Assembly (NCBI RefSeq): GCF_001258055.1
Contig: NZ_CVRM01000034.1
Location: forward strand, 1-64,000
DNA: 64,000 bases
Source of the DNA: Phaeobacter italicus
Lineage (GTDB): Bacteria; Pseudomonadota; Alphaproteobacteria; Rhodobacterales; Rhodobacteraceae
Direction of reading: 5' to 3'
Shown: positions 5,829 to 21,596 of the stretch, piece after piece
Layout of the letters: each line of letters starts with the position of its first letter
Position numbering within the stretch: the first letter of the stretch is position 1
The notes under the pieces: model-generated
The model's input: only the letters and a program-made list of their open reading frames with translations
What the model was told of the DNA's origin: nothing
The model's database searches: none
Translations under genes and position numbers: made by a program

Positions 5829-6512
5829 TCAGGTGTCCGCGACGTAGAACTTCAGAATGTCTGGCGCGACACCCACGCCGTTGACTGGCGTGACGTCTTG
5901 AGGGCAGGCGGACATGACGGCGATGACGTCCATATCGGCGCGGAAGGTCACTTGGTCATCCGGTTTTGACACGGGTGCGACGAAACTTGTGCTGCCGTCG
6001 GCTTGCACAGGGACGTTCATCCAAAGATTGAAAGGGGCGGGAACAGCTGGCGCTTTGAGGCCAATGGCCATCAGCGCCATCCGCAGATTATCAGCGCAAT
6101 TGTCGTGGTATTCCGTGCAGCCCAATTGCTGGTACCGGGCATGATCGCAGCAGGCGATTATCGTGTCATGCACACCATCGGATGTGTCTTCCGTGATTGT
6201 CATCAAGGGGCGACGCAGGTTGGAGGTCACACTGTCACCTACTTTGGGGAATATCGAGCCTAGGGCTGTGTGCAAATGCTCCATCGAAGAATACTCACCC
6301 ACATCATCTGCTGCAAAAATCCAGAAATCGCAGACTTGATGGCCGCTGGGGTTCATCACGGTTAGCTGTTGACCTGCGCCGACGCGCACCGCCACGCCGC
6401 ATCGCGCGTCGATTGTGTAGGTGTGGTTCATTCTGGGTGTGCCGTCAGCGGAAACGGCAATCTCAAGACTGCGGTTGGTACCATCGGGTCGGGAGGGGTC
6501 GAACGAGGCCAT
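5829..6512 (-). CDS. DUF1989 / urea carboxylase-associated family protein
   Basis: A 227-residue protein of the DUF1989 family. The core is clear: TIDARCGVAVRVGAGQQLTV, NPSGHQVCDFWIF, SSMEHLHTALGSIFPKVGD and the Cys-rich GCTEYHDNCADNLRMAL. Members of this family occur next to urea/guanidine carboxylases, and two of them form carboxyguanidine deiminase. No carboxylase is nearby here. The start is uncertain: 6512 (MASFDPS) is used, 6431 (MNHTYTID, 200 residues) fits the domain edge, and 6599 is also open. It is divergent from the BtpA-phosphoribosyltransferase-PRPP synthetase run. Given a creatinase in the same locus, action on a guanidino compound is a reasonable inference, not shown. Confidence 0.78.
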   Translation of the reverse strand: MASFDPSRPDGTNRSLEIAVSADGTPRMNHTYTIDARCGVAVRVGAGQQLTVMNPSGHQVCDFWIFAADDVGEYSSMEHLHTALGSIFPKVGDSVTSNLRRPLMTITEDTSDGVHDTIIACCDHARYQQLGCTEYHDNCADNLRMALMAIGLKAPAVPAPFNLWMNVPVQADGSTSFVAPVSKPDDQVTFRADMDVIAVMSACPQDVTPVNGVGVAPDILKFYVADT

Positions 6513-6803
6513 GGGCACGGGCTTTCGTGGATTATGTCTGGGTAGTTGCATTGTTTGGCGAGGGGCCATTCGCAAAGGAGCATAGACAGTTCTCGGCATA
6601 TTGGAATGAAGCTTACGTGCTTCTCGTCGGAGACGTGCCGAAGATTAGCTCCGCTTTGACATCGGCTGGTTTTGCAAAGAACCGCAGGCGTTCTCATCGA
6701 GATGCATTCATTTCCAAGCTAAATGAACTAATAAGCACAATAAATTTTCTAAATTCCATTGCCGATGATAGCGTCCTCGCAATAACCGGGATTGAGAATT
6801 GAG
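6513..6803. promoter_or_regulatory. Divergent promoter region between DUF1989 gene and BtpA-like operon
   Basis: About 290 bp separate the two oppositely oriented genes, if the 6512 start is right. The right part (6720-6790) is AT-rich. No clear -35/-10 pair or operator palindrome was identified. Confidence 0.35.
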
Positions 6804-7541
6804 ATGGATCGACACGACTTCAAAAAGACCTTTGGCGCAACTGGTCCTGTCATTCTTCCTGTCATTCATGTGCTTGACAGCGAACAGGCCGAGCGGAACA
6901 TCAAAGCAGCCATTGCTGGCGGGTGTCCGGGGGTTTTTCTGATCAACCACGACTTCGAGAAAGAGAAACTAGTCCCGATCATCAAGGAGATGCGGCAGGC
7001 GTTCCCGGACATTTGGCTCGGGGTGAATTTTCTGGCGGTCACCGGCAAGTTTGCCTTCCCAATTCTGGGAGAGATGCAAGCTGAAGGGTGCAAGGTCGAT
7101 GGTTACTGGGCCGATGACGCACGTATGGATGAACGCCGTGCGGAAGATGATCAGCCCGAAGCAGATGAGATCGCGGCCATCCGCGAAGGAAGCGGTTGGA
7201 CCGGGCTTTATATCGGCGGCACCGCATTCAAAAAGCAGCGCGACGTTGATCCAGCACAGTATGGCAAAAGCGCGCGCATCGCGACGCACTACATGGACGT
7301 CGTTGTGACCTCCGGCGTGGCGACTGGCCACGCAGCCGATGTTGGCAAGATCGACACGTTTCGCGCGCATTGCGGCGACACGGCACTTGGCCTTGCATCC
7401 GGCATCACACCTGAAAACGCAGCGCAATATGCAGATGCGGTTGATCTTTTCATGGTCGCGACCGGCATCAATTTTGACGGCGATTTCTACAATATTGATC
7501 CTGAGCGCCTGAAGCGGCTCATGGACCTCACACAGACATAA
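6804..7541 (+). CDS. BtpA/SgcQ-like TIM-barrel protein
   Basis: A 245-residue protein resembling the BtpA/SgcQ family of TIM barrels. The N-terminus (PVILPVIHVLDSEQAERNI), the central GVNFLAV and the C-terminus (GLASGITPENAAQYADAVD, then IDPERLKRLMD) fit the phosphate-binding half of such barrels. BtpA was described as a photosystem I stability factor and SgcQ sits in sugar operons; the true reactions are unknown. The ATG at 6804 is preferred over an upstream TTG at 6792. It begins a run with a phosphoribosyltransferase (12 bp downstream) and a PRPP synthetase, so a nucleotide or nucleoside substrate is likely. Identity is moderate and function unknown. Confidence 0.6.
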   Translation: MDRHDFKKTFGATGPVILPVIHVLDSEQAERNIKAAIAGGCPGVFLINHDFEKEKLVPIIKEMRQAFPDIWLGVNFLAVTGKFAFPILGEMQAEGCKVDGYWADDARMDERRAEDDQPEADEIAAIREGSGWTGLYIGGTAFKKQRDVDPAQYGKSARIATHYMDVVVTSGVATGHAADVGKIDTFRAHCGDTALGLASGITPENAAQYADAVDLFMVATGINFDGDFYNIDPERLKRLMDLTQT

Positions 7542-7553
7542 GGGAGAGAAAAG

Positions 7554-8174
7554 ATGGCTCAAGACAAAGGACCCAGAGACGACCGTTGGTACTTCTCGCT
7601 GATGGCCCCGAACACCAAAGGCGACAAGTTTGCATGGCTTGACCCGACCTCAATCTACATCAACGGCAAGGCGTATCATGATCTGCTGGATGATCTGGTG
7701 GCTGATCTAGATGCCGATGAGATTGACGTCGTCGCGGGCCTTGATGCGATGGGCTTTGTTCTGGCGGCGGGCATCGCGGCCCGTATCGGGAAGGGGTTTC
7801 TGCCCATTCGCAAACCCGGAAAGCTCTGTGTGGATACAGACAGCGCGTCTATGACCAACTACTCCGGTCAAACCCAGTCGATGGAAATGCGCACGCCCGC
7901 CTTTGCACCCGGAACGCGGGTTTTGCTGGTGGATCAGTGGGTTGAAACCGGCGGCACGATGCATGGTGCTGTCCAGCTGGTTGAACAGCAGAAGGGCAAA
8001 GTTGCGGGCATGGTGGCGATTGTCATGGAAGAGAATGACAATACGAAGTCCTATCGCGAAAAGTACAAGGTCGTCACCGCGATCCAGCCCGGCACCGAAT
8101 GGCAGCGCCAGGCCAATGCGCAGTATCTGGAAAGCTTCAAGACCTACAAACCCGAGATGGCGTTCCCGGTCTAA
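7554..8174 (+). CDS. Type I phosphoribosyltransferase, adenine-PRTase-like, with altered PRPP motif
   Basis: A 206-residue protein with the fold of purine phosphoribosyltransferases: a hood segment (DVVAGLDAMGFVLAAGIAARIG), a flexible-loop region (SASMTNYSGQTQSMEMRTPAF) and a PRPP loop VLLVDQWVETGGTM. In standard enzymes the loop starts with two acidic residues (VDD or VED); here the second is Gln. The AGGGAGAG ribosome site supports the start. The gene sits 12 bp after the BtpA-like gene and 52 bp before a PRPP synthetase gene. That pairing suggests transfer of ribose-5-phosphate to an unusual N-heterocycle, though the altered loop leaves catalysis open. Confidence 0.72.
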   Translation: MAQDKGPRDDRWYFSLMAPNTKGDKFAWLDPTSIYINGKAYHDLLDDLVADLDADEIDVVAGLDAMGFVLAAGIAARIGKGFLPIRKPGKLCVDTDSASMTNYSGQTQSMEMRTPAFAPGTRVLLVDQWVETGGTMHGAVQLVEQQKGKVAGMVAIVMEENDNTKSYREKYKVVTAIQPGTEWQRQANAQYLESFKTYKPEMAFPV

Positions 8175-8226
8175 GGCCTGAACCCGGCGCACATCCAATC
8201 AAACTCTGACCAGAGGGGCTCGACAG

Positions 8227-9159
8227 ATGAAATTGATCTGTGGAAACAGTAACCGTCCGCTTGCTGAAGCGATTGCCGCGCATATGCGTGTCCCTCTGGC
8301 TGAGTGTAACGTGCGTCGGTTTGCCGACGAAGAAGTCTTTGTCGAGATACAGGAAAACGTGCGCGGCGATGACGTCTATGTCATCCAATCAACGTCCTAT
8401 CCAGCCAACGACAACCTGATGGAGCTGCTGGTGTTGATCGACGCGCTGCGCCGATCCTCTGCCGGGCGGATCACCGCCGTGATCCCCTATTTCGGCTATG
8501 CCCGTCAGGACCGCAAATCAGCCCCGCGCACGCCGATCACGGCAAAGCTTGTGGCGAACATGATCACGCAGGCGGGCGCGCATCGGGTGCTAACTATGGA
8601 TCTGCATGCAGGGCAAATTCAGGGGTTCTTCGACATTCCCACCGACAATCTTTACGCGGTGCCCGAAATCGTGCGGGATATCGAAAAGCAAAAGGACCGC
8701 GACAATGTGATGGTCGTATCCCCGGACGTAGGCGGTGTAGTGCGCGCACGCGCTTTGGCGAAACGTCTCTCGACTGGCCTCGCAATTGTAGACAAGCGCC
8801 GCGACAAGCCCGGCTCGTCTGAAGTCATGAACATAATCGGGGACGTCTCTGGCAAGTCCTGCATGTTGGTCGATGACATTATCGACTCTGGCGGTACGCT
8901 CTGTAATGCCGCGACGGCGCTGCTCGAAAATGGCGCGGCGGAAGTTTCTGCTTACATCACCCATGGGGTCCTGTCCGGCAAGGCTGTCGACAGGATCAAT
9001 GCATCTGATCTGACGTCCCTGGTCATCACCGACACAATTTGCGCTACCGAAGCGGTCACCGCATCATCGAAAATTCGCGAGATTTCGATTGCGCCAATGT
9101 TCGCCAAGGCGATCACACGGATCGCGAATGGAGAGTCCGTCAGCGTCTTGTTCGAATAG
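8227..9159 (+). CDS. prs: Ribose-phosphate pyrophosphokinase (PRPP synthetase), accessory copy
   Basis: A 310-residue PRPP synthetase that makes PRPP from ribose-5-phosphate and ATP. Visible landmarks are [24 protein letters not shown], the ATP-site [10 protein letters not shown], the metal-site [18 protein letters not shown] (split around residue 125) and the ribose-5-phosphate loop [10 protein letters not shown]. Length is normal for the family. AGAGGGG precedes the start. Its placement in a catabolic-looking cluster, beside an odd phosphoribosyltransferase and an importer, suggests a dedicated copy that supplies PRPP locally while a housekeeping gene sits elsewhere; the second copy is an assumption. 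Confidence 0.92.
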
Positions 9160-9189
9160 AGGGTGATCATACGATTTGCATAAAGCAAC

Positions 9190-9199
9190 TTTATCGTTG
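9190..9199. promoter_or_regulatory. Candidate LysR operator, copy 1
   Basis: TTTATCGTTG lies 34 bp upstream of the LysR start at 9233. Its exact reverse complement occurs at 10139-10148 in front of the importer operon. A shared 10-mer on both flanks of a LysR gene is suggestive of binding sites. Confidence 0.35.
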
Positions 9200-9232
9200 T
9201 TCGCTATACATTTTCAGCGCTAATGTTCTCGT

Positions 9233-10117
9233 ATGGGCGCGGTCAACCTTTCAACAGAGCTCCTCAGAGCTTTCATCACTGTCATTGAGGTGGCAAGTTT
9301 CACGCGCGCGGCCGAGATACTTGGTCGGACGCAACCTGCCATCAGCCTGCAAGTGAAGCGCTTGGAAGAAGCGGTTGGCTATCCGCTCATTGCGCGGAAG
9401 GGCAAAGAGATATCGCTCACGGAGCGGGGGGAGGCTCTGGCCATACATGCGCGCCAGATTCTGCGCCTGAACGATCTGGCAATGGCGGAGTTTGAGCAGC
9501 GTGATCCCGCAGCAAGATTGCGGGTGGGGTTGCCTGTGGACTATGCGGTCAACACCCTGCAAGCCTGTTTGACGGACGTTGTCCGACAATTCCCCGATAC
9601 ACAGATCGAAATTCGATGTGATCTGTCCAAGCATCTGCTGGCGGCCATGCGGAGCAACGAAATCGATATCGCCGTGGCATTGTTCGACGGGGACGACCAG
9701 CAGTTCCTATTCCGCAACTGGAAAGAACAACCAACCTGGGTTGGCGCCAACGGGTTCGAGATCCCGGAACATGCTGACATCCCCCTTGTCGCGCACCCCT
9801 TTGGTTGTGTGTACCGCGACCGTATGGCTACCGCTTTGAAGTTGGTGGGAAAAAGCTGGCGCATCGCTTACTCCAGTCCCGGCATTGGTGGCGTTCAACG
9901 CGCGGTCCAGGATGGCCTTGGCCTTTCGTGCCTGACTGCTCCGACGGTCCAAAGCGGCATGCGCACTTTTTCTGAACAAGACGGCCTGCCGGTTCTTGCC
10001 CCTTTGCACATCGGGCTTTTCGCACGACAGGCTCAGTTGGGTGCGGGCGGATACGCGGCCATGGATGCCATGATCAACACCTTGGAGCAACGCTCATCGA
10101 GCGCTATTGACGCATAA
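9233..10117 (+). CDS. LysR family transcriptional regulator of the N-compound locus
   Basis: A 294-residue LysR-type regulator. The helix-turn-helix is residues about 4-63 (LRAFITVIEVASFTRAAEIL, then LEEAVGYPLIARKGKEISLT). The effector domain is typical, with LRVGLPVDYAVNTLQACL and IEIRCDLSKHLLAAMRSNEI. It lies between the prs gene and the importer operon, all on the plus strand. A 10-bp sequence upstream of it recurs inverted downstream, before the substrate-binding protein gene, so it probably controls both. The effector is unknown and is likely a substrate of the importer or an intermediate. Confidence 0.9.
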   Translation: MGAVNLSTELLRAFITVIEVASFTRAAEILGRTQPAISLQVKRLEEAVGYPLIARKGKEISLTERGEALAIHARQILRLNDLAMAEFEQRDPAARLRVGLPVDYAVNTLQACLTDVVRQFPDTQIEIRCDLSKHLLAAMRSNEIDIAVALFDGDDQQFLFRNWKEQPTWVGANGFEIPEHADIPLVAHPFGCVYRDRMATALKLVGKSWRIAYSSPGIGGVQRAVQDGLGLSCLTAPTVQSGMRTFSEQDGLPVLAPLHIGLFARQAQLGAGGYAAMDAMINTLEQRSSSAIDA

Positions 10118-10138
10118 CTGCTCATTATGAAGGCATAT

Positions 10139-10148
10139 CAACGATAAA
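10139..10148. promoter_or_regulatory. Candidate LysR operator, copy 2
   Basis: CAACGATAAA is the reverse complement of the element at 9190-9199. It lies about 115 bp before the substrate-binding protein start at 10265, inside an AT-rich 147-bp gap that should hold the promoter of the importer operon. Confidence 0.35.
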
Positions 10149-10264
10149 TTTCCTAAAAGTCTCATTTTACCATACCATTCTACAAAAATCAGACTGAACA
10201 CTATGGTTCGGCGAAAAATCAAATGCTCTTTTGCTGGGAAAGAGTGACCAACCGGGAGACACAA

Positions 10265-11404
10265 ATGTACAGACCAACCGTAACTTCATCACTATTGGGC
10301 TTGAACCGCCGCCAACTGCTGAAAGCTGGCGGCGCAGCCGTTCTGACAACACCATTTGTCAGCCGCGCCTGGGCGGCAACGACCGAAATCAACATGCTTG
10401 CGTGGTACGGCCATGGAGAGGCTGATGTGGTTGCGGAGTATGAGGCTGCAAACAACGTGAAGTTCGTGCCAAAGTATTATGCTGGTGGCGACAACATGCT
10501 GGCGCTGATCGCCCAATCCCCTCCGGGCACTTACGATCTGATCCTGTCTGACGCAGAATTCGTGCAGCAGCTGAACGCAGCTGGCTACATCGAAGAAATG
10601 AACCCGGCAGATTATCCGCTGGATGACATGCTGCACGAAGACTTCTCGCAGTTCCCCGGCCACTGGGCGGACGGCAAGATGTATTCCATGATCCTGCGCG
10701 GGGGGCACTTGGGTGTTTCCTACAACAAGAACTCCGTGACAGCGAAAGAAGCGGAAAGCTATTCCTGCTTCTGGAAGCCGGAGCTTCAGGGCAAAGTGGG
10801 CCATTTTGACTGGCACCTGCCGACCCTAGGTCAGATGAGCCTTTATGATGGGAATGGCGCTGACCTTTGGAACCTGAACGACGATCAGTGGTCCAAGGTT
10901 CAGGAGACCACCATGAGCCTGCGCTCGCAGGTTGGCGGCTTCTTTGACTATGGCGGCACGTTCAATGGCCTGAAAAACGGCGAGATGCAGGCGATGGTTG
11001 GCATCGGTGACTGGATCACCGGCGTTCTAGAAAAAGACGGCGCGCCTGTCGCGTCCGTGATCCCGAAGGAAGGCGGCATTCAGTTCACTGAAAGCTATTC
11101 CATCGGCAAGGGCAGCGAAAAGGCCGAAGAGGCCAAGAAGTTCATCCAGTACATGATGTCCCCTGCAGGTCAGGTGAAATCTGCACAGATGGCGGCCTAT
11201 CCCGGCTTCTGCGTGACCAAGGCTGGCCGCGCCGCCCTGATCGAGGCTGACATGGCGGAAGCCAAGCGGTCGCACCAGGTCGATGGTGATCCGCAAGATC
11301 CGATCGCACTGATCAAGGAAGGCCGGGTCCATTACCGCGACATTCCTCAGCAGCAGACGCTGGAGGACTGGAACGACTTCTGGTCCGAGTACAAGAGCGC
11401 CTGA
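10265..11404 (+). CDS. Spermidine/putrescine-type ABC transporter substrate-binding protein
   Basis: A 379-residue periplasmic binding protein of the PotD/opine family. The N-terminus has a twin-arginine signal (NRRQLLKAGG at residues 14-23) with probable cleavage after AWA near residue 37. The mature part begins INMLAWYGHGEADVVAEYEA and carries PotD-like PGTYDLILSDAEFVQQL. GGGAG precedes the start at 10265; the frame back to 10223 is not needed. It is followed by a hairpin and then two permeases and an ATPase. Because a creatinase, a deaminase and an amidohydrolase share the locus, a cationic guanidino or amine compound is the likely ligand; PotD homology alone cannot fix it. Confidence 0.88.
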   Translation: MYRPTVTSSLLGLNRRQLLKAGGAAVLTTPFVSRAWAATTEINMLAWYGHGEADVVAEYEAANNVKFVPKYYAGGDNMLALIAQSPPGTYDLILSDAEFVQQLNAAGYIEEMNPADYPLDDMLHEDFSQFPGHWADGKMYSMILRGGHLGVSYNKNSVTAKEAESYSCFWKPELQGKVGHFDWHLPTLGQMSLYDGNGADLWNLNDDQWSKVQETTMSLRSQVGGFFDYGGTFNGLKNGEMQAMVGIGDWITGVLEKDGAPVASVIPKEGGIQFTESYSIGKGSEKAEEAKKFIQYMMSPAGQVKSAQMAAYPGFCVTKAGRAALIEADMAEAKRSHQVDGDPQDPIALIKEGRVHYRDIPQQQTLEDWNDFWSEYKSA

Positions 11405-11424
11405 TCTAGGGCCCAAAGAACCAA

Positions 11425-11455
11425 AAAAGGGCGGCCAACAGGTCGCCCCCTTTTT
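11425..11455 (+). terminator. Attenuator-type hairpin between binding protein and permease
   Basis: AAAAAGGGCGGCC, loop AACA, then GGTCGCCCCCTTTTT forms a GC-rich stem followed by T residues, 20 bp after the stop of the binding-protein gene. A partial terminator here would make far more binding protein than membrane subunits, a common arrangement in ABC operons. Confidence 0.6.
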
Positions 11456-11486
11456 CCCTTAAGACGCGAAAGCCCTGCACAGCCCC

Positions 11487-12350
11487 ATGTCTTCCAATCC
11501 TGAAAATCGCCCAAGCCTTTATGCGCTGACGTGGCGTTTGCCGATCATCTTCTGGCAGCTGATCTTCTTTGTCGGGCCGGTTCTGTTCATGGTCGCGATG
11601 TCGTTCTTCCTGGTGAAGAACTATCGCATGACCGAAGCCTTCGAGTTCGTGAACTGGTCGCGGATGCTGACGCGCGGGTTCTTTTGGGACAGCTATTGGT
11701 ACACGATAGGCATCGCCACACTGTCCACCGTCTGCGCGATGTGTATCGCCTTTCCGGCAGCCTTTGCATTGGCCTTCCGCGCTTCTGAAAGCACGCGACG
11801 CTGGGCGATCTTTCTGCTGATCATTCCGTTTTTCACCAGCTATCTGGTGCGCACATTTTCATGGTTCGTGATTCTGTCCGAAAGTGGCGTGGTAAATGCC
11901 GTGCTGGGCTACATCGGCCTTGGCCCCTACACCATGCTGAACACCAACTTCGGCACGCTGGTGGGCTACATGACTCTGACCCTGCCGCTGGTGGTCATAC
12001 TGCAAACCGTCACGATGGCCAATATCGACAAAAACCTGATTGAGGCGGCGCGCAACCTTGGCTGTTCGCCCCTGCGCACGATCTGGCAGGTGATCATTCC
12101 ACTGTCCAAGACCGGGCTGATCATCGCGGCGATCTTCTGCTTTATTCTGTCCTTTGGTGACTTTGTGGCACCCTTCTATCTGGGCGGATCGCAGGAACCG
12201 ACCCTGCCAATCCTGATCCTCGATACCACCAAGTCCGGCCAGCAATGGCCGCGCGCAGCCGTTGTCGCGATCATGATGATGGTTACGCTCTTTGCCATCG
12301 CCTTCACCGGCATTGCTTTGGCCTATCGCAAGGGGAAGGGCGCAAAATGA
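11487..12350 (+). CDS. ABC transporter permease, PotB-like
   Basis: A 287-residue inner-membrane permease with about six hydrophobic helices and the cytoplasmic EAA loop (LIEAARNLGCSPLRTIWQVIIPLSKTG split across residues about 187-213). It begins ITFWQ-like segments typical of PotB/PotH. The ribosome site before 11487 is weak. Its last bases overlap the next permease start (ATGA at 12347-12350), a sign of translational coupling. It should pair with the PotC-like protein and the ATPase to form one importer. Confidence 0.88.
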   Translation: MSSNPENRPSLYALTWRLPIIFWQLIFFVGPVLFMVAMSFFLVKNYRMTEAFEFVNWSRMLTRGFFWDSYWYTIGIATLSTVCAMCIAFPAAFALAFRASESTRRWAIFLLIIPFFTSYLVRTFSWFVILSESGVVNAVLGYIGLGPYTMLNTNFGTLVGYMTLTLPLVVILQTVTMANIDKNLIEAARNLGCSPLRTIWQVIIPLSKTGLIIAAIFCFILSFGDFVAPFYLGGSQEPTLPILILDTTKSGQQWPRAAVVAIMMMVTLFAIAFTGIALAYRKGKGAK

Positions 12351-13147
12351 AACAGAGCCGATCCCTCAACTTTATCCTTGGCATCTATGTCGTCCTGATC
12401 TTCGCCTTCGTATTTGCGCCCATCATCTTCAGCATGATCTTTTCCTTCAACTCGCAGCGCTTCCCGACGATCCCGTTGGGTGAGTTTTCGACCGAATGGT
12501 ACGCTAAGGTCCTGGCCGATCCGGACATCTGGAAAGCCGCGCGCAACAGCCTGATCGTCTCCTGCTCAACGGCTGTGATCGCGACATTCCTAGGCTTTTG
12601 CACGGCCTATTCCGACTTCCGGTACAACTTCCGATTCAAAGGCCCGTACCTTGCGCTGATCCTGCTGCCGCCCACGATTCCGCTGATCATCATGGCGCTG
12701 GCCATGCTTGCGTGGCTGTCCAAGATCGGGATGTCCGGGCAGCTTTATTCGATCATCATTGCGCACAGCGTGCTGACAGCACCTTTTGCCATGGCTGTGA
12801 TCCGCCTGCGGCTGAACCAAATGGACCCGGACCTCGAATCCGCTGCATGGAACCTGGGCGGATCGGAATGGCAGACCATGCGGCATGTGATCGTGCCGTT
12901 CTGCAAGCCTGCCATTTTTTCAAGCCTGTTCCTGACGGCCGCTGTCTCCTTCGACGAATTTGCTGTGTCATGGTTTGTCTCTGGCCTGAATTCTACGTTG
13001 CCCGTGGTCGTTCTCGAAATCGTTCAGGGCAATATTGACCCGCAGGTCAACGCCATCGGGACATTCGTCTTCCTCACATCAATGACGCTGGTTGTGCTGG
13101 CACAGCTCTTCTTCGCCAGCCGCCAAATCAAGGGCCTGCACGCATGA
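12347..13147 (+). CDS. ABC transporter permease, PotC-like
   Basis: A 266-residue second permease with six hydrophobic segments and an EAA-type loop (LESAAWNLGGSEWQTMRHVI at about residues 166-185). The true start is the ATG at 12347, overlapping the stop of the first permease and preceded by AAGGGGAAGGG; the frame open from 12245 is an artefact inside the previous gene. It ends in an ATGA overlap with the ATPase gene. PotC relatives often carry PDI(V/L)-type N-termini; this one has IFSFNSQRFPTIPLGEFSTEWY, which is typical. Confidence 0.88.
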   Translation: MKQSRSLNFILGIYVVLIFAFVFAPIIFSMIFSFNSQRFPTIPLGEFSTEWYAKVLADPDIWKAARNSLIVSCSTAVIATFLGFCTAYSDFRYNFRFKGPYLALILLPPTIPLIIMALAMLAWLSKIGMSGQLYSIIIAHSVLTAPFAMAVIRLRLNQMDPDLESAAWNLGGSEWQTMRHVIVPFCKPAIFSSLFLTAAVSFDEFAVSWFVSGLNSTLPVVVLEIVQGNIDPQVNAIGTFVFLTSMTLVVLAQLFFASRQIKGLHA

Positions 13148-14229
13148 GCAAACCGCTGGTTGTCTTTGACAAAGTACAAAAGCACTTCGGCAATTTCGTT
13201 GCAGTTAAAGAACTGGATTTCGAAATCCGCGAAGGTGAGTTCCTCGCAATCATGGGGCCATCCGGCTGCGGCAAGACCACAACTTTGCGCATGTTGGCTG
13301 GCCTCGAAGCGCCGACGCACGGCGAGATTCGCCTAAATGATCGAGTGATGAATGACGTTGCCCCGCACGAGCGCGACACGCCTTTGGTTTGGCAGTCACT
13401 CGCGCTCTTCCCATTCCTGACGGCGCGCGAAAACGTCGAATTTGGTCTCAAGATGCGTGGCGTGGACAAGGCGGAACGCAAAGAGCGTGCGATAAAGTGG
13501 CTCGACAAAATGGGGATCCTCGAATTTGAGAACCGCCATATTTCGACCTTGTCAGGTGGCCAGAAGCAACGTGTTGCACTGGCTCGTTCGCTGGTGATGG
13601 AGCCACAGATCCTGCTCTTGGACGAACCATTGTCAGCTCTGGATGCTCATTTGGTAATTCGCATGCAGGCCGTCCTCACGGACCTTCAGCGCGAGTTGGG
13701 GATTACCTTTGTCTACGTGACCCACTCCCAGTCCGAGGCCTTTGCGATGGCCGACCGCGTCATCATCATGGGCAAAGGCGAGATTGGTCAGATCGGCACG
13801 CCCAAGGAAATCTACCGCGCCCCTGCAAACCAGTTCGTCGCCGAGTTTGTGGGCCGCAACAATATTCTGGCAGGCAAAGTCAAATCTGTTGACGGCGGTA
13901 CGGCGCGCATCACAACCACCTCTGGCGAATTCACAGTACCCACGAACGAGGTGCAGCTGGTCGAAGACCACAACGCCAGCTTCGTGATCTCCGCCGATCT
14001 GGTGCACATCGCATCAGAAGAACCCGTCGGCGGGAACAAGGCGTATTGCAAGCTGATTTCTGAAGAATTCGTCGGCTCCATGGTCACCCTGTTCCTCGAA
14101 GACGCGCAGGGCCATGAATTCAAGGTCCAGATGCAGGAACGCGAACTGTCCAAGTTCGATCTGCACTCTGGTGATGAAATCTGGCTGTCGTGGGACACGC
14201 AAAGCGCCCACGTCCTGAACGAAAGCTGA
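13144..14229 (+). CDS. ABC transporter ATPase, PotA-like
   Basis: A 361-residue ATP-binding subunit. Walker A is GPSGCGKTT (residues 38-46), the signature is LSGGQKQRVALARSL (about 136-150), Walker B is ILLLDEPLSALDAH and the switch His lies in VTHSQSEA. A C-terminal TOBE-type regulatory domain follows (NNILAGKVKSVDGGTARITT). The Q-loop reads VWQSLALF where VFQSYALF is usual, a tolerated change. It overlaps the PotC-like gene by ATGA and is followed after 4 bp by the CE4-type hydrolase, so the importer and the enzymes probably share one transcript. Confidence 0.92.
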   Translation: MSKPLVVFDKVQKHFGNFVAVKELDFEIREGEFLAIMGPSGCGKTTTLRMLAGLEAPTHGEIRLNDRVMNDVAPHERDTPLVWQSLALFPFLTARENVEFGLKMRGVDKAERKERAIKWLDKMGILEFENRHISTLSGGQKQRVALARSLVMEPQILLLDEPLSALDAHLVIRMQAVLTDLQRELGITFVYVTHSQSEAFAMADRVIIMGKGEIGQIGTPKEIYRAPANQFVAEFVGRNNILAGKVKSVDGGTARITTTSGEFTVPTNEVQLVEDHNASFVISADLVHIASEEPVGGNKAYCKLISEEFVGSMVTLFLEDAQGHEFKVQMQERELSKFDLHSGDEIWLSWDTQSAHVLNES

Positions 14230-14233
14230 CGAT

Positions 14234-15127
14234 GTGATCCGCAACCCCATCCCCTGGCCCAATGGTGCCAAATGCGCCGTGGCAATTACGTTCGACATGG
14301 ATGCGGACAGCCTGATCCACATCGCCAAGCCCGAAGACAGCCACGACCGGCTCTACCCCATTTCAATGGGCCGCTATGGCCCTCTGGTCGCGCTACCCCG
14401 CATCCTCGACACCTACCGGTGTCTGGGCCTGAAGCAATCGTTCTTCATCCCCGGCTGGTGTTTGGAGACCTACCCGGATGTGGCCGAGGCGATCCTGAAA
14501 GACGGGCACGAGATCGGCCACCACGGATACTTGCACGAAGACCCTATAAAGACACGCGGGGAGCAGCGCGAGTGGTTCGAGCGCACGCTCGATGCGCATA
14601 TGCGCATCTGCGGGCAAAAGCCGCGTGGTTACCGTGCACCGGTCTACAACATAACGCAGGAAGTCGTCGATCTGATGATCGAACACGGCATTCGCTATGA
14701 CAGCTCAATGATGGCCGACGACATTCCGTACCGTTTGGACACGGCCAATGGATCTCTCTACGAAATGCCTGTGCATTGGGGTACCGACGACTGGCCCCCC
14801 TTCGCGCATTACGACGAGATTGGGTACATGATGCCAGTTGCAAGCCCGTCGCACGGGCTCAGCGGTTTCTGGGAGGAATTCGAGGCGCAGTATGACGCCG
14901 GTGGTTTCTTTATGCTGATCATCCATCCTTTTCTCACAGGGAGATTGGCGCGGTGGAAGCAGGTTGAAGCATGGATTGCCAAAACGCAGGAAACCAAAGA
15001 CGTCTGGTTTGCCACCCTTGACGAGATTGCCGATCATATGGACCAGTTGCAGGAGAATGGCACCTGGATGCCAAGCGTTGAACGGCTGCCCTACTACGAC
15101 GGGCCAATCCTGGGGGACAAGACATGA
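14234..15127 (+). CDS. CE4-fold (polysaccharide deacetylase / cyclic imide hydrolase-like) amidohydrolase
   Basis: A 297-residue NodB-fold protein with the metal site of the polysaccharide deacetylase family: TFDMDADS (motif 1), GHEIGHHGYLHED (motif 2) and GYRAPVYN (motif 3). There is no signal peptide. Cytosolic members of this branch include cyclic imide hydrolase and allantoinase-like PuuE, which open cyclic C-N bonds rather than deacetylating sugars. The start is a GTG at 14234, 4 bp after the ATPase stop; the nearby ATG is out of frame. It overlaps the deaminase gene by ATGA. In this setting a ring-opening amidohydrolase role is inferred. Confidence 0.8.
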   Translation: MIRNPIPWPNGAKCAVAITFDMDADSLIHIAKPEDSHDRLYPISMGRYGPLVALPRILDTYRCLGLKQSFFIPGWCLETYPDVAEAILKDGHEIGHHGYLHEDPIKTRGEQREWFERTLDAHMRICGQKPRGYRAPVYNITQEVVDLMIEHGIRYDSSMMADDIPYRLDTANGSLYEMPVHWGTDDWPPFAHYDEIGYMMPVASPSHGLSGFWEEFEAQYDAGGFFMLIIHPFLTGRLARWKQVEAWIAKTQETKDVWFATLDEIADHMDQLQENGTWMPSVERLPYYDGPILGDKT

Positions 15128-15567
15128 ACGCTGACGACACACGCTTGCTGCGCATCGCTTACGACGAGGCCAAAGCCGGGTTTGAAGAAGGCGGGTGCCC
15201 GATAGGTTCAGTGCTGGCGCGCGGCGGCGAAGTCGTAGCCCAAGGGCGCAATCAACGTGTCCAAAAAGGCGACCCGATTGCCCATGGCGAGATGGATGCG
15301 TTGCGCAAGGCCGGCCGCCAGAAGACCTATCGCGACACGACGCTTTATACGTCGCTCAGCCCGTGCATGATGTGCACCGGGACGATCATTCAATTCGGCA
15401 TCCCGCGCGTGGTGATCGGCGAAAACACCAACTTCGGCGGGAACGAAGAGTTCCTACGCTCGAAAGGCGTTGAAGTGATAGTCGCAGATGACCCCGATTG
15501 CATTGCTCTGATGCAGCGCTTCATCGATGAAAAACCGGAGCTCTGGGCAGAGGACATCGCGGAGTAA
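15124..15567 (+). CDS. Cytosine deaminase (yeast Fcy1-type) homologue
   Basis: A 147-residue zinc deaminase of the CDA superfamily. Zinc and catalytic residues are H54-G-E56 and the PCMMC motif (C81, C84). It resembles yeast cytosine deaminase along its length: EEGGCPIGSVL, RDTTLYTSLSPCMMCTG, FGIPRVVIGEN, and a C-terminus with Trp141 and Asp144 in the place of the yeast substrate-contacting tail. It is unlike tRNA adenosine deaminase TadA, which lacks that tail. It is coupled to the CE4-type hydrolase by ATGA. Cytosine is the default substrate; a cyclic amidine such as creatinine is an alternative raised by the locus, and only assay can decide. Confidence 0.82.
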   Translation: MNADDTRLLRIAYDEAKAGFEEGGCPIGSVLARGGEVVAQGRNQRVQKGDPIAHGEMDALRKAGRQKTYRDTTLYTSLSPCMMCTGTIIQFGIPRVVIGENTNFGGNEEFLRSKGVEVIVADDPDCIALMQRFIDEKPELWAEDIAE

Positions 15568-15594
15568 TCGCGTCCTGTGATCAAAAACGAGAGC

Positions 15595-16623
15595 ATGACT
15601 GTAGATCGGCCGGATCTCGTGCCCGCGGGGGCGTTCAGCTATCCGGTCAAGGATCCCAAGGCAACCCGGTGGTTCGGGTTCCTGCTGTTGCCCCAATTCA
15701 CTTTGCTCGCGTTCAGCGCTGCTCTGGATCCTCTGCGCATCGCCAACCAGCTGTCCCAAAAACCACTCTATGGATGGCTGGCCATCTCAGATGACGGCAG
15801 GGCTGTTTCGTCATCCTCCGGCATCGATATTGATGTGCATGGCAGCCTGGACGATCTGAACCCCGATACCTACCTCTTTGTCTGTTCGGGCAACAATAGT
15901 ATTCAGGCGGCCTCCGACGATGTCTTGGGGGGCATACGCCGCCACGCCCGGTTTGGCGGCAAGCTTGGCGGCATCTGCACCGGTGCTGCGACCCTCGCGC
16001 GCGCGGGTTTTCTCAGGGACAAGACTTTCACCCTTCATTGGGAAAACCAGCCCGGATTTGTTGAGGCATTTTCCGATCTGGAGCCCACACCACAGAGGTT
16101 CGAAAGGGACGGAAGTCTGCTGACTTGCGGTGGTGGTGTTGCGGCAACTGAAATGATGATTTCGATCATCGCCGAAGACTATGGCGAAGACTTTGCAATC
16201 GCCGTTTCGGATATGTGTTTGAACGGCCCCGATGTCGCGACCCGCAGCGAACAGCGCTCCTCAATCGCCAAGGCCATCAGCTCTCGCAATCCTCGTATCC
16301 TTGCTGTTCTGCGGGCCATGTATGACAATATCGAGGACCCGCTGACGCTCGATGAACTTGCCACAAGCGCGGGTATTTCGCGCCGTCAGATTGAACGTCA
16401 GTTCAGACAATTGCTGAACGAGGCTCCGGCGCAAACCTATCGCAACATCAGATTGGAACGCGCGCGCACATTGCTTACAGAAACCAACCTGAGTGTCATG
16501 GAAGTTGCCATGGCGTCAGGGTTCAACTCGAACAACGTATTCTCACGGCATTACAAAGAGCGATACGGCGAAACACCCTATGGGCACCGAGGGCGGCTCA
16601 AAACGGTGGGCAACAACAAATAG
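15595..16623 (+). CDS. GlxA family (DJ-1/PfpI + AraC) transcriptional regulator
   Basis: A regulator of about 342 residues with an N-terminal DJ-1/PfpI-like sensor domain (FLLLPQFTLLAFSAALDPLR, then GGICTGAATLARAGFL) and a C-terminal AraC-type double helix-turn-helix (LDELATSAGISRRQIERQF, then VMEVAMASGFNSNNVFSRHY). This subgroup includes regulators of carnitine, glycine betaine and arginine use. The start is uncertain: ATG at 15595 is used, while GTG at 15577 adds six residues. It ends 6 bp before an IS481 target duplication; before that insertion the convergent creatinase would have been its neighbour. It may sense an amine or guanidino intermediate. Confidence 0.87.
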   Translation: MTVDRPDLVPAGAFSYPVKDPKATRWFGFLLLPQFTLLAFSAALDPLRIANQLSQKPLYGWLAISDDGRAVSSSSGIDIDVHGSLDDLNPDTYLFVCSGNNSIQAASDDVLGGIRRHARFGGKLGGICTGAATLARAGFLRDKTFTLHWENQPGFVEAFSDLEPTPQRFERDGSLLTCGGGVAATEMMISIIAEDYGEDFAIAVSDMCLNGPDVATRSEQRSSIAKAISSRNPRILAVLRAMYDNIEDPLTLDELATSAGISRRQIERQFRQLLNEAPAQTYRNIRLERARTLLTETNLSVMEVAMASGFNSNNVFSRHYKERYGETPYGHRGRLKTVGNNK

Positions 16624-16629
16624 TGTCGC

Positions 16630-16635
16630 GCTAGA
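16630..16635. repeat. IS481 target site duplication, left copy
   Basis: GCTAGA directly flanks the element end and is repeated at 17668-17673. A 6-bp duplication centred on CTAG is the known target habit of IS481. Confidence 0.85.
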
Positions 16636-17584
16636 TGTGGAACCTCAACAGGTTGTTCCGATCAAAGTCTAGCCGGCTGATGGGTGGTTTTGATTTTAGC
16701 GCCGTGTGTGGGCGGTGCCAATTGTAGAGGTGGGTCCAGACCGGCAGATCGGCGGCGCGGTCGTCTGAGGTCTGATAGACTCGGGCGTAGGCCCATTCAC
16801 GCAGAGCAGTCTGGATGAACCTCTCGGCTTTTCCGTTGGTTTTGGGCGTGTAGGGTTTGGTGCGGATGTGGCGGATGCCAAGCTCGGCACAGGCGGCCTT
16901 GAAAGCATGAGATTTGTAGCACGACCCATTGTCTGTCATCACCCGCGCAACCTTCACCCCGATGGACGCATACCAGGCCACCGCCGCATTCAGGTGCGCC
17001 ACCGCGCTCACCGCCTTTTCGTCGGGATGGACCTGGGTGAAGGCCAGGCGCGAGGCGTCATCGACACAGACATGCACATGTTCCCAGCCGATCCCTCGGC
17101 TGTTCGACTGGCCTGTCCTGTCGCCCGTGATGCGGTGCCCGGCGCGCTCAAACTTGCCAAGACGCTTGATATCGAGGTGGATCATGTCGCCGGGATGATC
17201 GCGTTCATACCGGCGTACAGGCTCGGCAGGCTCCAGATCGCGTAGCCGCGAAAGGCCCGCCCTGCGCAGAACCCGGCTGACCGTCGCCGCCGAAACGCCG
17301 GTCCTTGCCGCAATATGTGCCCCGGTAAGACGCTGACGGCGCAAGGCGATGATCCGGTCTGCCACGTCATCAGGCGTAGGATTGCGCAGAGAATAAGGGC
17401 GTGAACTGCGATCCTGCAAACCTTCGCGCCCCTCCTGTTCATACCGCCGCCACCACTTCGTGGCCGTCTTGGCAGAGCAGCCGCAGATCGCCCCAGCCTG
17501 CGCAAAACTCATCCCGCATGCAATCATCCCCACTAGCCGCTCTCGACCCAATGGCGTCAGTCTGGCATTCTTGTGCACGTTCAT
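16631..17584 (-). CDS. IS481 family transposase
   Basis: A 317-residue DDE transposase. The N-terminal helix-turn-helix (ACGMSFAQAGAICGCSAKTA) is followed by the rve catalytic core: Asp in MIHLDIKRLG, Asp in VMTDNGSCYKS and Glu in NGKAERFIQ. The start at 17584 (MNVHKNARLTPLGRERLV) is the family-typical one; the frame continues to 17650 without support. The stop codon TAG is formed by the CTAG of the left target duplication, as in other IS481 members. The frame is intact, so the element may still be active. Confidence 0.93.
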   Translation of the reverse strand: MNVHKNARLTPLGRERLVGMIACGMSFAQAGAICGCSAKTATKWWRRYEQEGREGLQDRSSRPYSLRNPTPDDVADRIIALRRQRLTGAHIAARTGVSAATVSRVLRRAGLSRLRDLEPAEPVRRYERDHPGDMIHLDIKRLGKFERAGHRITGDRTGQSNSRGIGWEHVHVCVDDASRLAFTQVHPDEKAVSAVAHLNAAVAWYASIGVKVARVMTDNGSCYKSHAFKAACAELGIRHIRTKPYTPKTNGKAERFIQTALREWAYARVYQTSDDRAADLPVWTHLYNWHRPHTALKSKPPISRLDFDRNNLLRFHI

Positions 17585-17667
17585 TCGATCCCTCCGAACA
17601 AGGTTGGTGCTTGGTAACTCCAACCAACTCGGTCTGGATCGAATGGACAACCTGCTGAAAGCTCACA
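16636..17667 (-). mobile_element. Complete IS481-type insertion sequence
   Basis: The ends are inverted: the left end begins TGTGGAACCTCAACAGGTTG at 16636, and the right end read on the minus strand begins TGTGAGCTTTCAGCAGGTTG at 17667. Both are flanked by GCTAGA. The 1032-bp element holds one intact transposase gene and sits in the gap between the GlxA-type regulator and the creatinase gene. Confidence 0.92.
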
Positions 17668-17673
17668 GCTAGA
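17668..17673. repeat. IS481 target site duplication, right copy
   Basis: GCTAGA, identical to 16630-16635. Identity of both copies suggests a fairly recent insertion. Confidence 0.85.
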
Positions 17674-17676
17674 GCC

Positions 17677-17704
17677 GGTATGAGCAGCTGTAGCCGCTCA
17701 TACC
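17677..17704. terminator. Hairpin between convergent genes, probable terminator
   Basis: GGTATGAGC at 17677-17685 and GCTCATACC at 17696-17704 pair perfectly around a 10-nt loop, 16 bp past the creatinase stop. No T-run follows on either strand, so factor-dependent termination or RNA protection is as likely as intrinsic termination. It would have served both the regulator and creatinase genes before the IS arrived. Confidence 0.5.
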
Positions 17705-17719
17705 TTGGATCAGGACTGT

Positions 17720-18952
17720 TTACCCGACGACGTTGTGCTCCGGTCCGTAGGGGAAACCGGTGATGTTCTCGTTACCGTCTTCGGTGATGACCAGAATGTC
17801 ATGCTCGCGGTAGCCGCCTGCGCCGGGCTGGCCATCAGGAATCGTCAGCATTGGCTCCATCGAGATCACCATCCCCGGTTCAAGCACAGTGTCGATATCT
17901 TCCCGCAGCTCAAGCCCTGCCTCACGGCCATAGTAATGCGACAGAACGCCAAAGGAATGGCCATATCCAAAGGTCCGGTACTGCAGCATGTCGCGCTCCG
18001 CAAAGAAGTCGTTGATCTTGTGCGTGACCTCGGCGCAGGACACACCCGGCTTGAGCAAGCTCATTCCGTATTCATGGGCAGCGACATTCGCTCCCCAGAC
18101 CTTGAGGCTGGCCGGATCCACCTCCTCGACGAAAAGTGTGCGCTCGAGCGCCGTGTAGTAGCCCGAGATCATCGGGAAGGTATTGAGGCTGAGGATGTCA
18201 CCGCGCTCTAGTTTGCGGCAGGTCACAGGGTTGTGCGCGCCATCGGTGTTAATGCCAGACTGGAACCAGACCCATGTGTCGCGGATTTCAGAATCTGGGA
18301 ACCGTTTGGAAATCTCCAATTCCATCGCATCGCGTCCGGCCATGGCAACGTCGATCTCGCGCGCTCCGGTTTTGATCGCGTCCTTGATGGCATATCCACC
18401 AACGTCCGCTGTCGCGGCACCTGCTCGGATCAGTTCGATCTCTGCCTCAGATTTGTGCATGCGCAACCGCATGGTTGTCGGCGCGATGTCTTTCTTGACA
18501 GAGGGTGCCAGGAATTCATCCATCAAGCCCAGTTGTGTATAGGAAATGTGATCCCCTTCGAATCCGACTACCTTACCGGACCCCGTCACAGACTGGATCG
18601 CACGCCAATAGTTGTTCCGCTGCCAATCAGTGTAGGTGATGTTGTCACCATAGCCACGACGCCAGGGCTGTGCCGCGTCGATGCCTGCGCTGAACGTGAC
18701 GGTTTCGGTCGCTGTGACCACCTGAGCGTAAGGCCGACCAAACGCACAATACAAAAAGCCCGAGTAGTAGGAGACGTTGTGCATTGAGGTTAACACGCAG
18801 GCATCAATGCCCTCATCGGCCATGACCGCACGCAGCTTGGTCAAGCGTGCTTCATATTCGGCGTCGGCAAAAGGCAGCACCTTTTCGCCTTGGTGAAAAC
18901 GGTAAAAATCTGGGCGCTGTCCTGCAACGCCAAACTCGGATATTCCGGACAT
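17720..18952 (-). CDS. Creatinase (creatine amidinohydrolase)
   Basis: A 410-residue M24 pita-bread enzyme that hydrolyses creatine to sarcosine and urea. It matches Pseudomonas creatinase over most of its length: FLYCAFGRPYAQVVT, ITYTDWQRNNYW, FQSGINTDGAHNPVT, LQYRTFGYGHSFG, SHYYGREAGLELREDIDT, GAGGYREHDIL and ENITGFPYGPEHN. The catalytic His of the family is His240 here. The metal ligands of aminopeptidases in this fold are not expected. AGGAG precedes the start. It is convergent with the GlxA-type regulator, separated by the IS481 element. Urea could feed the urease operon at 25-30 kb. No creatininase gene was seen. Confidence 0.9.
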   Translation of the reverse strand: MSGISEFGVAGQRPDFYRFHQGEKVLPFADAEYEARLTKLRAVMADEGIDACVLTSMHNVSYYSGFLYCAFGRPYAQVVTATETVTFSAGIDAAQPWRRGYGDNITYTDWQRNNYWRAIQSVTGSGKVVGFEGDHISYTQLGLMDEFLAPSVKKDIAPTTMRLRMHKSEAEIELIRAGAATADVGGYAIKDAIKTGAREIDVAMAGRDAMELEISKRFPDSEIRDTWVWFQSGINTDGAHNPVTCRKLERGDILSLNTFPMISGYYTALERTLFVEEVDPASLKVWGANVAAHEYGMSLLKPGVSCAEVTHKINDFFAERDMLQYRTFGYGHSFGVLSHYYGREAGLELREDIDTVLEPGMVISMEPMLTIPDGQPGAGGYREHDILVITEDGNENITGFPYGPEHNVVG

Positions 18953-19421: not shown

Positions 19422-20054
19422 TTAGATATCGATGCGCTCCGCAATACTCAGAGCATCTTCCAACTCAACGCCTAAATATCGCACCGTACTGTCAACTTTT
19501 GTGTGACCAAGCAGAAGCTGCACCGCGCGAAGGTTGCCAGTCTTGCGATATATCTCGGCAGCTTTGGTCCGACGGAGCGAATGAGTGCCGTAACCGCTGG
19601 GTTCCAGTCCAATTGCAGTCACCCAATCACGAACAAGTCGAGCATATTGCCGCGCGGAGATGTGAGGTCGGTCATGAAATCGGCTGGGAAACACGAAAAG
19701 GCGGCCGATCATTTCAGGCGATCTAACCCAAGCAGTAACCGTTTCTCTCGTGTTTTCAGTCAGTTCAAACCGAACCGGCTGATTGGTTTTGCTTTGGATC
19801 ACCGACACTCGTTCGCGAACGCGATCATCTCTGACCAAATCGGTCACGGCGAGTTTGACTAAGTCGCACCCTCGCAACTTGCTATCAATCGCGACGTTGA
19901 ACAGCGCGAGGTCGCGAAGGTAGCCTGCAATCTCGAGCCGAGCGCGGATTGCCCAAACTTGTTTGGGAAACAGCGGCCGTTTCTGGCCGATTATCCGCCC
20001 TTTGTTCCAAGCTTTGCGTTTTGGGGTGACTGCGGGAAGTTGGACTCGTGGCAT
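19422..20054 (-). CDS. Compact tyrosine recombinase (site-specific integrase)
   Basis: A 210-residue protein consisting of little more than the catalytic domain of tyrosine recombinases. Expected residues are visible: Arg in SKLRGCDLVKL, Lys in SKTNQPVRFE, the HxxR box GTHSLRRTKA, His in LLGHTKVD and the nucleophile in TVRYLGVE. The N-terminal DNA-arm domain is reduced to about 40 residues. The start at 20054 is set by GGAGGG 7 bp upstream. A perfect 13-bp inverted repeat lies at 20083-20111 in front of it and a hairpin follows it. Standalone small integrases like this occur on plasmids and islands. Confidence 0.85.
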   Translation of the reverse strand: MPRVQLPAVTPKRKAWNKGRIIGQKRPLFPKQVWAIRARLEIAGYLRDLALFNVAIDSKLRGCDLVKLAVTDLVRDDRVRERVSVIQSKTNQPVRFELTENTRETVTAWVRSPEMIGRLFVFPSRFHDRPHISARQYARLVRDWVTAIGLEPSGYGTHSLRRTKAAEIYRKTGNLRAVQLLLGHTKVDSTVRYLGVELEDALSIAERIDI

Positions 20055-20082
20055 AACATGCCCTCCAATCCTCCCTCCAAAC

Positions 20083-20111
20083 CCAGACGTCAGCGCCGCG
20101 CTGACGTCTGG
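20083..20111. promoter_or_regulatory. Perfect 13-bp inverted repeat upstream of the integrase
   Basis: CCAGACGTCAGCG at 20083-20095 and CGCTGACGTCTGG at 20099-20111 with a 3-nt spacer CCG, starting 29 bp upstream of the integrase start. It could be a recombinase core site, an operator, or a leader hairpin that limits integrase translation. Position and symmetry are seen; the role is inferred. Confidence 0.55.
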
Positions 20112-20391
20112 AGCATAGCATCGGGTCGACACGCTGTAGCCCATCGATGGTGTTTAGCTTTTTTGCCTTGGTTTTTTGACGTGGGAAGCTCCGCGACCTG
20201 ATCCTTGAATGCCACACCAAAGCTCCAGATTGCGCGAATGGCTGCTTCTTACACCGTGTTGCAGCATCAAAACCTTCGCCAATGCAGCACAATCCGTGCT
20301 GCGAGCGCACGCAGCACAAAATAAGGACTTCCGGTGTGGGCTCTTTTCTGCCGTTAGCTGCGTTTTGCACCAAGGTCCGCACTGAGTATCG
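20112..20391. other. Gap between integrase and HNH nuclease genes
   Basis: About 280 bases without a gene. The sequences CTGCCGTTAG (20348-20357) and AAGGTCCGC (20372-20380) recur in the gaps at 478 and 5489, pointing to decayed dispersed repeat material. Confidence 0.35.
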
Positions 20392-21291: not shown

Positions 21292-21295
21292 CGGT

Positions 21296-21592
21296 TCACC
21301 CGCGTTGGAGACGTTCCAGTTTTCGATCGGCCGCGCGAAGGGTCAGCACCGCGCCTGTCAAAAATGGAAGTGCAAAGCCAGCCGCAGCGATGGCAAAAAT
21401 CATGATGGCGGCCAAAACCGAGTATTCGGCGGTCTGTTGTGCCAGTGATAGTCGACCCAAGCCAATCAGGAAGAACACGCTGGTTCCCAGGAAGATCAGG
21501 TAAAGCGGCCCGAAGGGTTCGATCACCTCACGGCGAGTGCGCTCCAAGACCGAATGCCGCAACATGTTCCAGCGTTTGCTTGCCTTGTTCAC
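21296..21592 (-). CDS. Small two-helix membrane protein in the HNH cassette
   Basis: A 98-residue protein with a basic N-terminus, two hydrophobic helices (about residues 29-48 and 55-83) and a charged C-terminal tail RAADRKLERLQRG. The start is GTG at 21592, inside the 4-bp gap from the preceding XRE gene, and its stop lies 4 bp before the HNH gene start. Such tight packing argues for co-translation. I do not recognise a family. By position it could be a membrane effector or anchor of the nuclease system. Confidence 0.6.
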   Translation of the reverse strand: MNKASKRWNMLRHSVLERTRREVIEPFGPLYLIFLGTSVFFLIGLGRLSLAQQTAEYSVLAAIMIFAIAAAGFALPFLTGAVLTLRAADRKLERLQRG

Positions 21593-21596
21593 CAGA

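Follow-up and report, generated by a model that had tools for sequence, protein, structure and literature searches.

Which compound would a bacterium break down with a creatinase, an Fcy1-type deaminase, a putative ring hydrolase and an ATP-binding cassette (ABC) importer, but no creatininase? The question is raised by a locus of Phaeobacter italicus at positions 5829-18952 of a 64 000-nucleotide stretch of contig NZ_CVRM01000034.1 (the whole stretch is called the window here), which an initial annotation had described as a possible guanidino or cyclic ureido catabolic locus built around creatinase. Comparison with related loci makes it most likely that the locus serves creatinine and has a deaminase and a CE4-family hydrolase in place of creatininase and creatinase, because the importer adjoins creatininase and creatinase in all seven of the genomes compared that carry it at 58-62% identity without the BtpA-like barrel of this locus. 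The whole explanation, uptake of creatinine or a very closely related cyclic guanidine followed by a breakdown that bypasses creatininase, with a place for the BtpA-like barrel and its neighbouring phosphoribosyltransferase (PRT), is given a probability of about one half.

Importer loci with and without the BtpA-like barrel

The binding protein of the importer was found in 27 of the 295 genomes of the family sample, our own included (E <= 1e-90), and 13 of these 27 carry BtpA. At 58-62% identity the importer occurs without BtpA in seven genomes (G010, G035, G106, G267, G274, G275 and G285), and in each of them it is joined by creatininase, creatinase and a LysR-type regulator of the same type (41-45% identity to the LysR of the locus). 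The creatininases are 68-75% identical to that of a further locus, L135, which matches a solved creatininase (PDB 1j2t, E 1.6e-108). No match to CE4, to either deaminase type or to BtpA was found within the 20 kb taken around these seven importers. Creatininase is present in 0 of 13 BtpA loci of the family sample and in 7 of 7 BtpA-free loci (Fisher P = 1.3e-5, kinship ignored), a count that leaves out six genomes with the importer at 42-53% identity and G212 (importer at 82%, contig ending after the ATPase, genome 62% complete).

Outside this comparison, L135 holds importer, LysR, creatininase, creatinase and BtpA together. L227 combines the importer with two creatininase-family genes, an Fcy1-like deaminase and a fused BtpA-PRT, and L241 is a row of creatininase, binding protein, two permeases, ATPase and creatinase. 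Three enzyme sets accompany the importer: creatininase with creatinase, deaminase with ring hydrolase, and the L227 set, in which an Fcy1-like deaminase joins two hydrolases of the creatininase family. Each could begin the breakdown of creatinine in a way that is either known or makes chemical sense. When creatininase presence is mapped on a tree of 93 binding proteins, five changes are required, against a mean of 12.4 after shuffling, so that the label is clustered but has moved more than once; L227, L253, L241, L198 and L132 lie on long branches, where their placement is unsure.

Gene identities, synteny and the differing enzyme sets on one importer lineage are what the comparison of sequences provides. 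We take the shared importer as the strongest such evidence for creatinine or a very similar compound, and the importer probably does bring in a creatinine-like molecule, in line with the kind of substrate considered in the initial annotation. Far relatives of the importer in L254, L255 and L256 sit with creatininase-family, amidohydrolase and arginase-family genes and perhaps mark another guanidino-compound locus.

Gene content and conservation

The features of the locus are as follows.

5829-6599, minus strand: DUF1989 protein, optional member (Pfam PF09347, 170.5 bits)
6807-7541, plus strand: BtpA-like barrel (Pfam BtpA, 32.7 bits; open reading frame listed from TTG 6792, relatives begin at ATG 6807)
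7554-8174, plus strand: PRT, adenine-PRT-like (Pfam PF00156)
8227-9159, plus strand: phosphoribosyl pyrophosphate (PRPP) synthetase, optional member (NCBIfam NF002320, 487 bits, cut-off 297)
9233-10117, plus strand: LysR-type regulator (Pfam)
10223-11404, plus strand: importer substrate-binding protein (Pfam SBP_bac_8)
11487-12350, plus strand: importer permease 1 (Pfam BPD_transp_1)
12344-13147, plus strand: importer permease 2 (BPD_transp_1; longest open reading frame listed from 12245)
13144-14229, plus strand: importer ATPase (Pfam ABC_tran and TOBE_2)
14234-15127, plus strand: CE4-family hydrolase, proposed hydantoin-ring opener (Pfam Polysacc_deac_1)
15124-15567, plus strand: Fcy1-type deaminase, proposed creatinine (and cytosine) deaminase (yeast cytosine deaminase in PDB, E 5e-45)
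15577-16623, plus strand: GlxA/GbdR-like AraC-family regulator (Pfam; NCBIfam GbdR 263 bits, below the cut-off of 480)
16636-17667, transposase reading frame 16631-17650 on the minus strand: IS481 insertion element, outside the pathway (NCBIfam NF033577)
17720-18952, minus strand: creatinase, optional edge gene, convergent with GlxA (PDB 7yto, 1chm, 1kp0)

Families were assigned by Pfam, NCBIfam and PDB searches, which bore out those named at the outset: DUF1989, BtpA-like (weakly), PRT, PRPP synthetase, LysR, the four-gene polyamine-type importer, CE4, Fcy1-like deaminase, GlxA and, by sequence, creatinase. The DUF1989 protein scores below the cut-offs of the urea-amidolyase-associated NCBIfam models. 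The genes described as one block are all present, but the IS481 element that parts GlxA from creatinase had been missed.

Scanning genome contigs with a BtpA profile yielded 216 confirmed relatives, and the locus counts given out of 80 refer to the best 80 of these, with gene presence set by identity thresholds and many contigs short. PRT is found in 77 of the 80, adjoining BtpA. Counts for the other genes are 64 (binding protein), 62 and 56 (permeases), 55 (LysR), 51 (ATPase), 40 (CE4) and 26 (Fcy1-type deaminase), followed by PRPP synthetase (17), DUF1989 (12), uracil phosphoribosyltransferase (UPRTase; 7), creatinase (6), GlxA (5), the CodA-type deaminase (3), URC1 and URC4 (2 each) and creatininase (1). 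Restricted to the 41 loci whose flanks exceed 7.5 kb on each side of BtpA, the counts are 39 for PRT, 34 for the binding protein, 27 for CE4, 21 for the Fcy1 deaminase and five for creatinase. The recurring unit comprises the BtpA-like barrel, PRT, LysR, the ABC importer, CE4 and the Fcy1-type deaminase, with DUF1989, PRPP synthetase, GlxA and creatinase as optional members. A search for the gene set in other genomes had been suggested with the original proposal, which a lack of synteny beyond the strain was to overturn; the set is syntenic in many genera and is no chance neighbourhood, and the proposal withstands this check.

The unit is common to many genera yet patchy, with BtpA in only 4 of the 385 genomes of the class sample. 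In the family sample BtpA occurs in 13 genomes, CE4 in 31 and the deaminase in 16, each at its own E-value limit. A named plasmid carries a row of BtpA, PRT, PRPP synthetase and LysR that lacks the importer (L088); 18 plasmid records gave a match and none spans 80% of the locus. No description of the unit was found in the literature searched, whose coverage leaves most subscription journals outside, so that a prior description is possible.

Deaminase and CE4 hydrolase

Residues N43, H54, E56, C81, C84, F104, W141 and D144 of the deaminase are invariant in 30 aligned rows, and by alignment the protein keeps the zinc-binding residues, the catalytic Glu and the residues that line the base pocket of yeast cytosine deaminase. 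The CE4 protein matches PDB 3rxz (E 7e-56) and, more distantly, the PuuE allantoinase (E 3e-10), and it falls below the curated PuuE cut-off (TIGR03212, 55.2 bits versus 424.6). Its CE4 domain has the Asp-His-His set, with D21, D23, H97 and H101 invariant in 57 rows.

Among the 54 loci whose sequence extends 2.6 kb or more past the ATPase, 29 have an Fcy1-type deaminase, seven a CodA type and 18 neither, and the two types are never found together; CE4 accompanies Fcy1 in 28 loci and CodA in one, while CodA occurs without CE4 in six and Fcy1 in one. The CodA-type enzyme takes the place of the Fcy1 type in seven related loci (L053, L132, L140, L146, L197, L200 and L201), and the L140 copy matches Escherichia coli CodA (E about 1e-114 to 1e-113). 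A deaminase is present in 10 of the 13 BtpA loci of the family sample. This figure includes our own locus, which has deaminase and CE4, and G187, which carries the two genes at the opposite end of its contig (L039); without these two deaminases the tally is 8 of the 12 non-own loci. The exceptions are G054 and G104, with CE4 and no deaminase, and G077, with neither.

A row of DUF1989, large amidohydrolase, CE4, amidase and a protein of 155-156 amino acids with no Pfam match, containing no BtpA or PRT, was seen in L046 (7361-12259) and L047 (7754-12671). The CE4 of these rows is 67-70% identical and lies between the large amidohydrolase and the amidase (the L046 amidase and L047 amidohydrolase were assigned by Pfam, the L047 amidase by 56% identity). 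This gene order would be the one expected for a sequence of deaminating, opening and cleaving. On balance the comparison slightly favours a route through deaminase and CE4, and it supports the earlier suggestion that a deaminase with a ring hydrolase may stand in for creatininase.

BtpA-like barrel and phosphoribosyltransferase

The BtpA-like barrel is a marginal member of its family: it passes the Pfam BtpA/SgcQ cut-off of 30 with 32.7 bits, over its C-terminal part only, and lies under the NCBIfam subfamily cut-off (TIGR00259, 32.5 bits versus 153.4). The weak Pfam score marks a divergent branch. In an AlphaFold model (mean predicted local distance difference test score of 92.6) the nearest folds are phosphosugar barrels. 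Among the matches listed, the Z scores of hexulose-6-phosphate synthase, KDPGal aldolase, TrpF, ribulose-phosphate epimerase and others differ by a few units, and further families may fit as well; a PDB sequence search found no relative at E 0.01. Reading a reaction from the fold was rejected because several phosphosugar barrel families score so closely. The titles and abstract beginnings of part of the BtpA/SgcQ literature gave nothing on function.

The PRT profile matches 23 PDB sequences, adenine PRTs best, and the protein lies under the curated adenine-PRT cut-off (best 100.7 bits versus 170). BtpA and PRT are fused into one protein in L106, L140, L146 and L227. In the TrpD-TrpF step pair a phosphoribosyltransferase is followed by a phosphoribosyl isomerase; the pair here differs in that identity is 12%, the PRT belongs to the adenine-PRT family, other barrels score equal or higher and the neighbours are catabolic.

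Two other settings were observed. BtpA-PRT adjoins UPRTase amid housekeeping genes and without the importer in L089, L091, L092, L094 and L127, which are from Oceanospirillaceae/Pseudomonadales metagenome-assembled genomes; L241 is a separate locus of the Oceanospirillaceae genome that has L089. In a Shinella locus (L149, 1-10768) creatinase, LysR, a PfkB kinase, RbsD, a ureidoglycolate-lyase-like protein and BtpA occur with no PRT match, which places BtpA in a ribose-linked setting.

Known creatinine routes do not explain the role of BtpA and PRT in the locus. The two may act on the hydantoin side, a tentative assignment that we consider rather doubtful. A more specific and somewhat less probable version is a phosphoribosyl handle, in which PRT would join N-methylhydantoin to PRPP, CE4 would open the phosphoribosylated ring, BtpA would remove ribose-5-phosphate and the PRPP synthetase would recharge the cycle. 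N-methylhydantoinase (EC 3.5.2.14) needs ATP. Equally speculatively, the handle would pay for the unfavourable ring opening and so replace that ATP-dependent enzyme.

Proposed pathway and the case against it

In the proposed pathway the ABC importer would take up creatinine or a very close cyclic guanidine, the Fcy1-type deaminase would convert creatinine to N-methylhydantoin and ammonia, and the CE4 hydrolase would open the hydantoin ring to N-carbamoylsarcosine, while the edge creatinase would handle creatine. Within the deaminase branch the BtpA barrel and PRT would jointly act on a 5-phosphoribosyl compound, and the PRPP synthetase, where present, would refill PRPP. We infer the substrate, the order of steps and the whole of the BtpA/PRT role.

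Several observations weigh against this pathway. No recognised gene for N-carbamoylsarcosine cleavage is present at the locus, and BtpA, PRT and PRPP synthetase fit nowhere in the known creatinine routes. The split between enzyme sets has exceptions in L135, L227 and the L089/L241 pair of one genome. CE4 occurs without a deaminase in 12 of the 54 loci with sequence beyond the ATPase and both are missing in six, L198 lacks deaminase, CE4 and creatininase, and importer relatives at 50-53% identity (G086, G128 and G200) have neither enzyme set. Other points lead towards cytosine or uracil: the deaminase pocket resembles that of cytosine deaminase, URC1, URC4 and UPRTase follow the deaminase in L136 and L143, and UPRTase adjoins BtpA-PRT in the five further loci named above. 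Where the deaminase stands apart from the module (eight loci, L218-L225, mostly judged from one or two scanned neighbours), its contexts are mixed and only L220 is informative; there (8100-10222) a CTP synthase gene overlaps a stand-alone deaminase homologue (84%), which again points to cytosine or uracil.

Alternative explanations

These last observations speak for a URC-like pyrimidine locus, in which cytosine would be imported and deaminated to uracil, PRT would make the nucleotide, CE4 would open the ring, BtpA would split phosphoribosylurea into ribose-5-phosphate and urea, and the PRPP synthetase would close the cycle. The Fcy1 and CodA cytosine types of the deaminases and the PRPP synthetase of 17 loci are in keeping with it. 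It does not account, however, for the occurrence of creatininase and creatinase with this same importer, and a D-hydantoinase/dihydropyrimidinase scores over its cut-off in 15 of 16 module genomes, so that uracil probably has another route; DUF1688 (URC4) matches in two of these 16 genomes and gave no match in our own. The D-hydantoinase, the L241 row and the seven creatininase loci led to its demotion as the main model, and we consider it unlikely.

The imported compound could instead be another cyclic or open guanidine, such as glycocyamidine, handled by the same kinds of enzyme. Distant importer relatives (42-44% identity in G063, G116 and G239) do have genes of the creatininase (45-46%), amidohydrolase and arginase families as neighbours, and DUF1989 is present in 12 loci, but the neighbours of the closer importer relatives are a creatininase and a creatinase that resemble characterised enzymes closely, and this possibility seems less likely still.

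A far smaller chance is given to creatinase being the centre of the locus, fed by the other genes. By full-length similarity the protein is evidently a creatinase: it matches the solved creatinases 7yto, 1chm and 1kp0 with 513, 505 and 495 bits (E 1e-147 to 5e-153), and its next-best PDB match is a proline dipeptidase with 88 bits. The GlxA-creatinase pair stands beside the module in L075, L076, L079 and L085, creatinase lies near BtpA in L135 and L149, and all 13 BtpA genomes of the family sample have a creatinase (hypergeometric P = 0.005, uncorrected for genome size or kinship). Those six loci are, however, the only ones of the 80 in which it was found (many of the other 74 being on short contigs; 36 of the 41 with long flanks lack it), creatinase homologues occur in 199 of the 295 family genomes anyway (E <= 1e-80), and the gene is convergent with the module, while L183 and L184 have the tail-to-tail GlxA-creatinase pair but not the module. 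Creatinase as the centre was rejected on these grounds; it is an optional edge gene and not the core of the locus. What the initial annotation observed was mostly right, including the lack of a recognised creatininase (PF02633, no match in the whole genome; control positive in 6 of 14 genomes), and its guess at the pathway has fared better than its heading of a locus built around creatinase.

The IS481 transposase (324.7 bits, cut-off 224) belongs to an element at about 16636-17667 that is flanked on both sides by the six-base repeat GCTAGA and lies between the stop codons of the convergent GlxA and creatinase. The uninterrupted site is present in L075 and L076, and in L079 and L085 the gap between the two genes is too small for an element. 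Beside creatinase, 19422-23481 holds two tyrosine-recombinase-type integrases, a helix-turn-helix protein and an HNH protein, and is possibly a mobile segment; the HNH protein resembles restriction enzymes that bind phosphorothioated DNA (110 bits, below the cut-off of 180). No tRNA was found in the window. A second creatinase (77% identity) is encoded elsewhere in the genome. Some 8 kb away from the creatinase, an enzyme expected to set urea free, a urease alpha subunit (Pfam) is encoded at 26979-28721.

Polyamine import by a transporter that lies beside unrelated enzymes by chance is very improbable and was rejected as the main reading. The best named relatives of the importer are of the PotA-PotD and PotF types (PotD/PotF in PDB, weakly), but all importer genes miss the curated PotA-PotD/PotF-PotI cut-offs by far (PotD 49.2 bits versus 582, PotC 161.9 versus 326), and importer and enzymes are kept together across many genera.

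Comparison with known systems and significance

According to PMC8864220, Corynebacterium glutamicum converts creatinine to N-methylhydantoin and ammonia in a step to which CodA is related, and N-methylhydantoin is a dead end in strains without further enzymes; the same 2022 paper has Roseobacter denitrificans growing on creatine without a homologue of the creatine-transport protein CreT. The deaminase route given there (creatinine, N-methylhydantoin, N-carbamoylsarcosine, sarcosine; CodA, HyuB and CshA) resembles the pathway proposed here in placing the deaminase first and ring opening second, and CodA-type deaminases occur in loci related to ours. It differs in that the present locus has an Fcy1-type deaminase, CE4 in place of a Hyu-type hydantoinase, the ABC importer and BtpA/PRT, with no carbamoylsarcosine amidase seen at the locus. 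For the ATP-dependent N-methylhydantoinase route, no HyuA/HyuB-type Pfam match was obtained among the module proteins scanned at the locus. The creatininase-creatinase route shares its importer lineage and LysR type, in relatives, and the creatinase at the edge, but this locus and genome lack creatininase.

The URC route of uracil catabolism, as outlined in PMC7530994, is alike in that the base is phosphoribosylated before opening, as in the handle model, and differs in that an adenine-PRT-like PRT, CE4 and BtpA would here replace UPRTase, URC1 and URC4. URC genes co-occur in two related loci, but DUF1688 was not found in this genome.

The analysis offers a concrete importer candidate common to two kinds of creatinine locus. 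CE4 becomes a candidate hydantoin opener, and the conserved BtpA-PRT pair gains a testable role. If the phosphoribosyl handle were true, the URC principle would have arisen a second time, built independently, and a BtpA-type barrel would, to our knowledge, have a role in catabolism for the first time.

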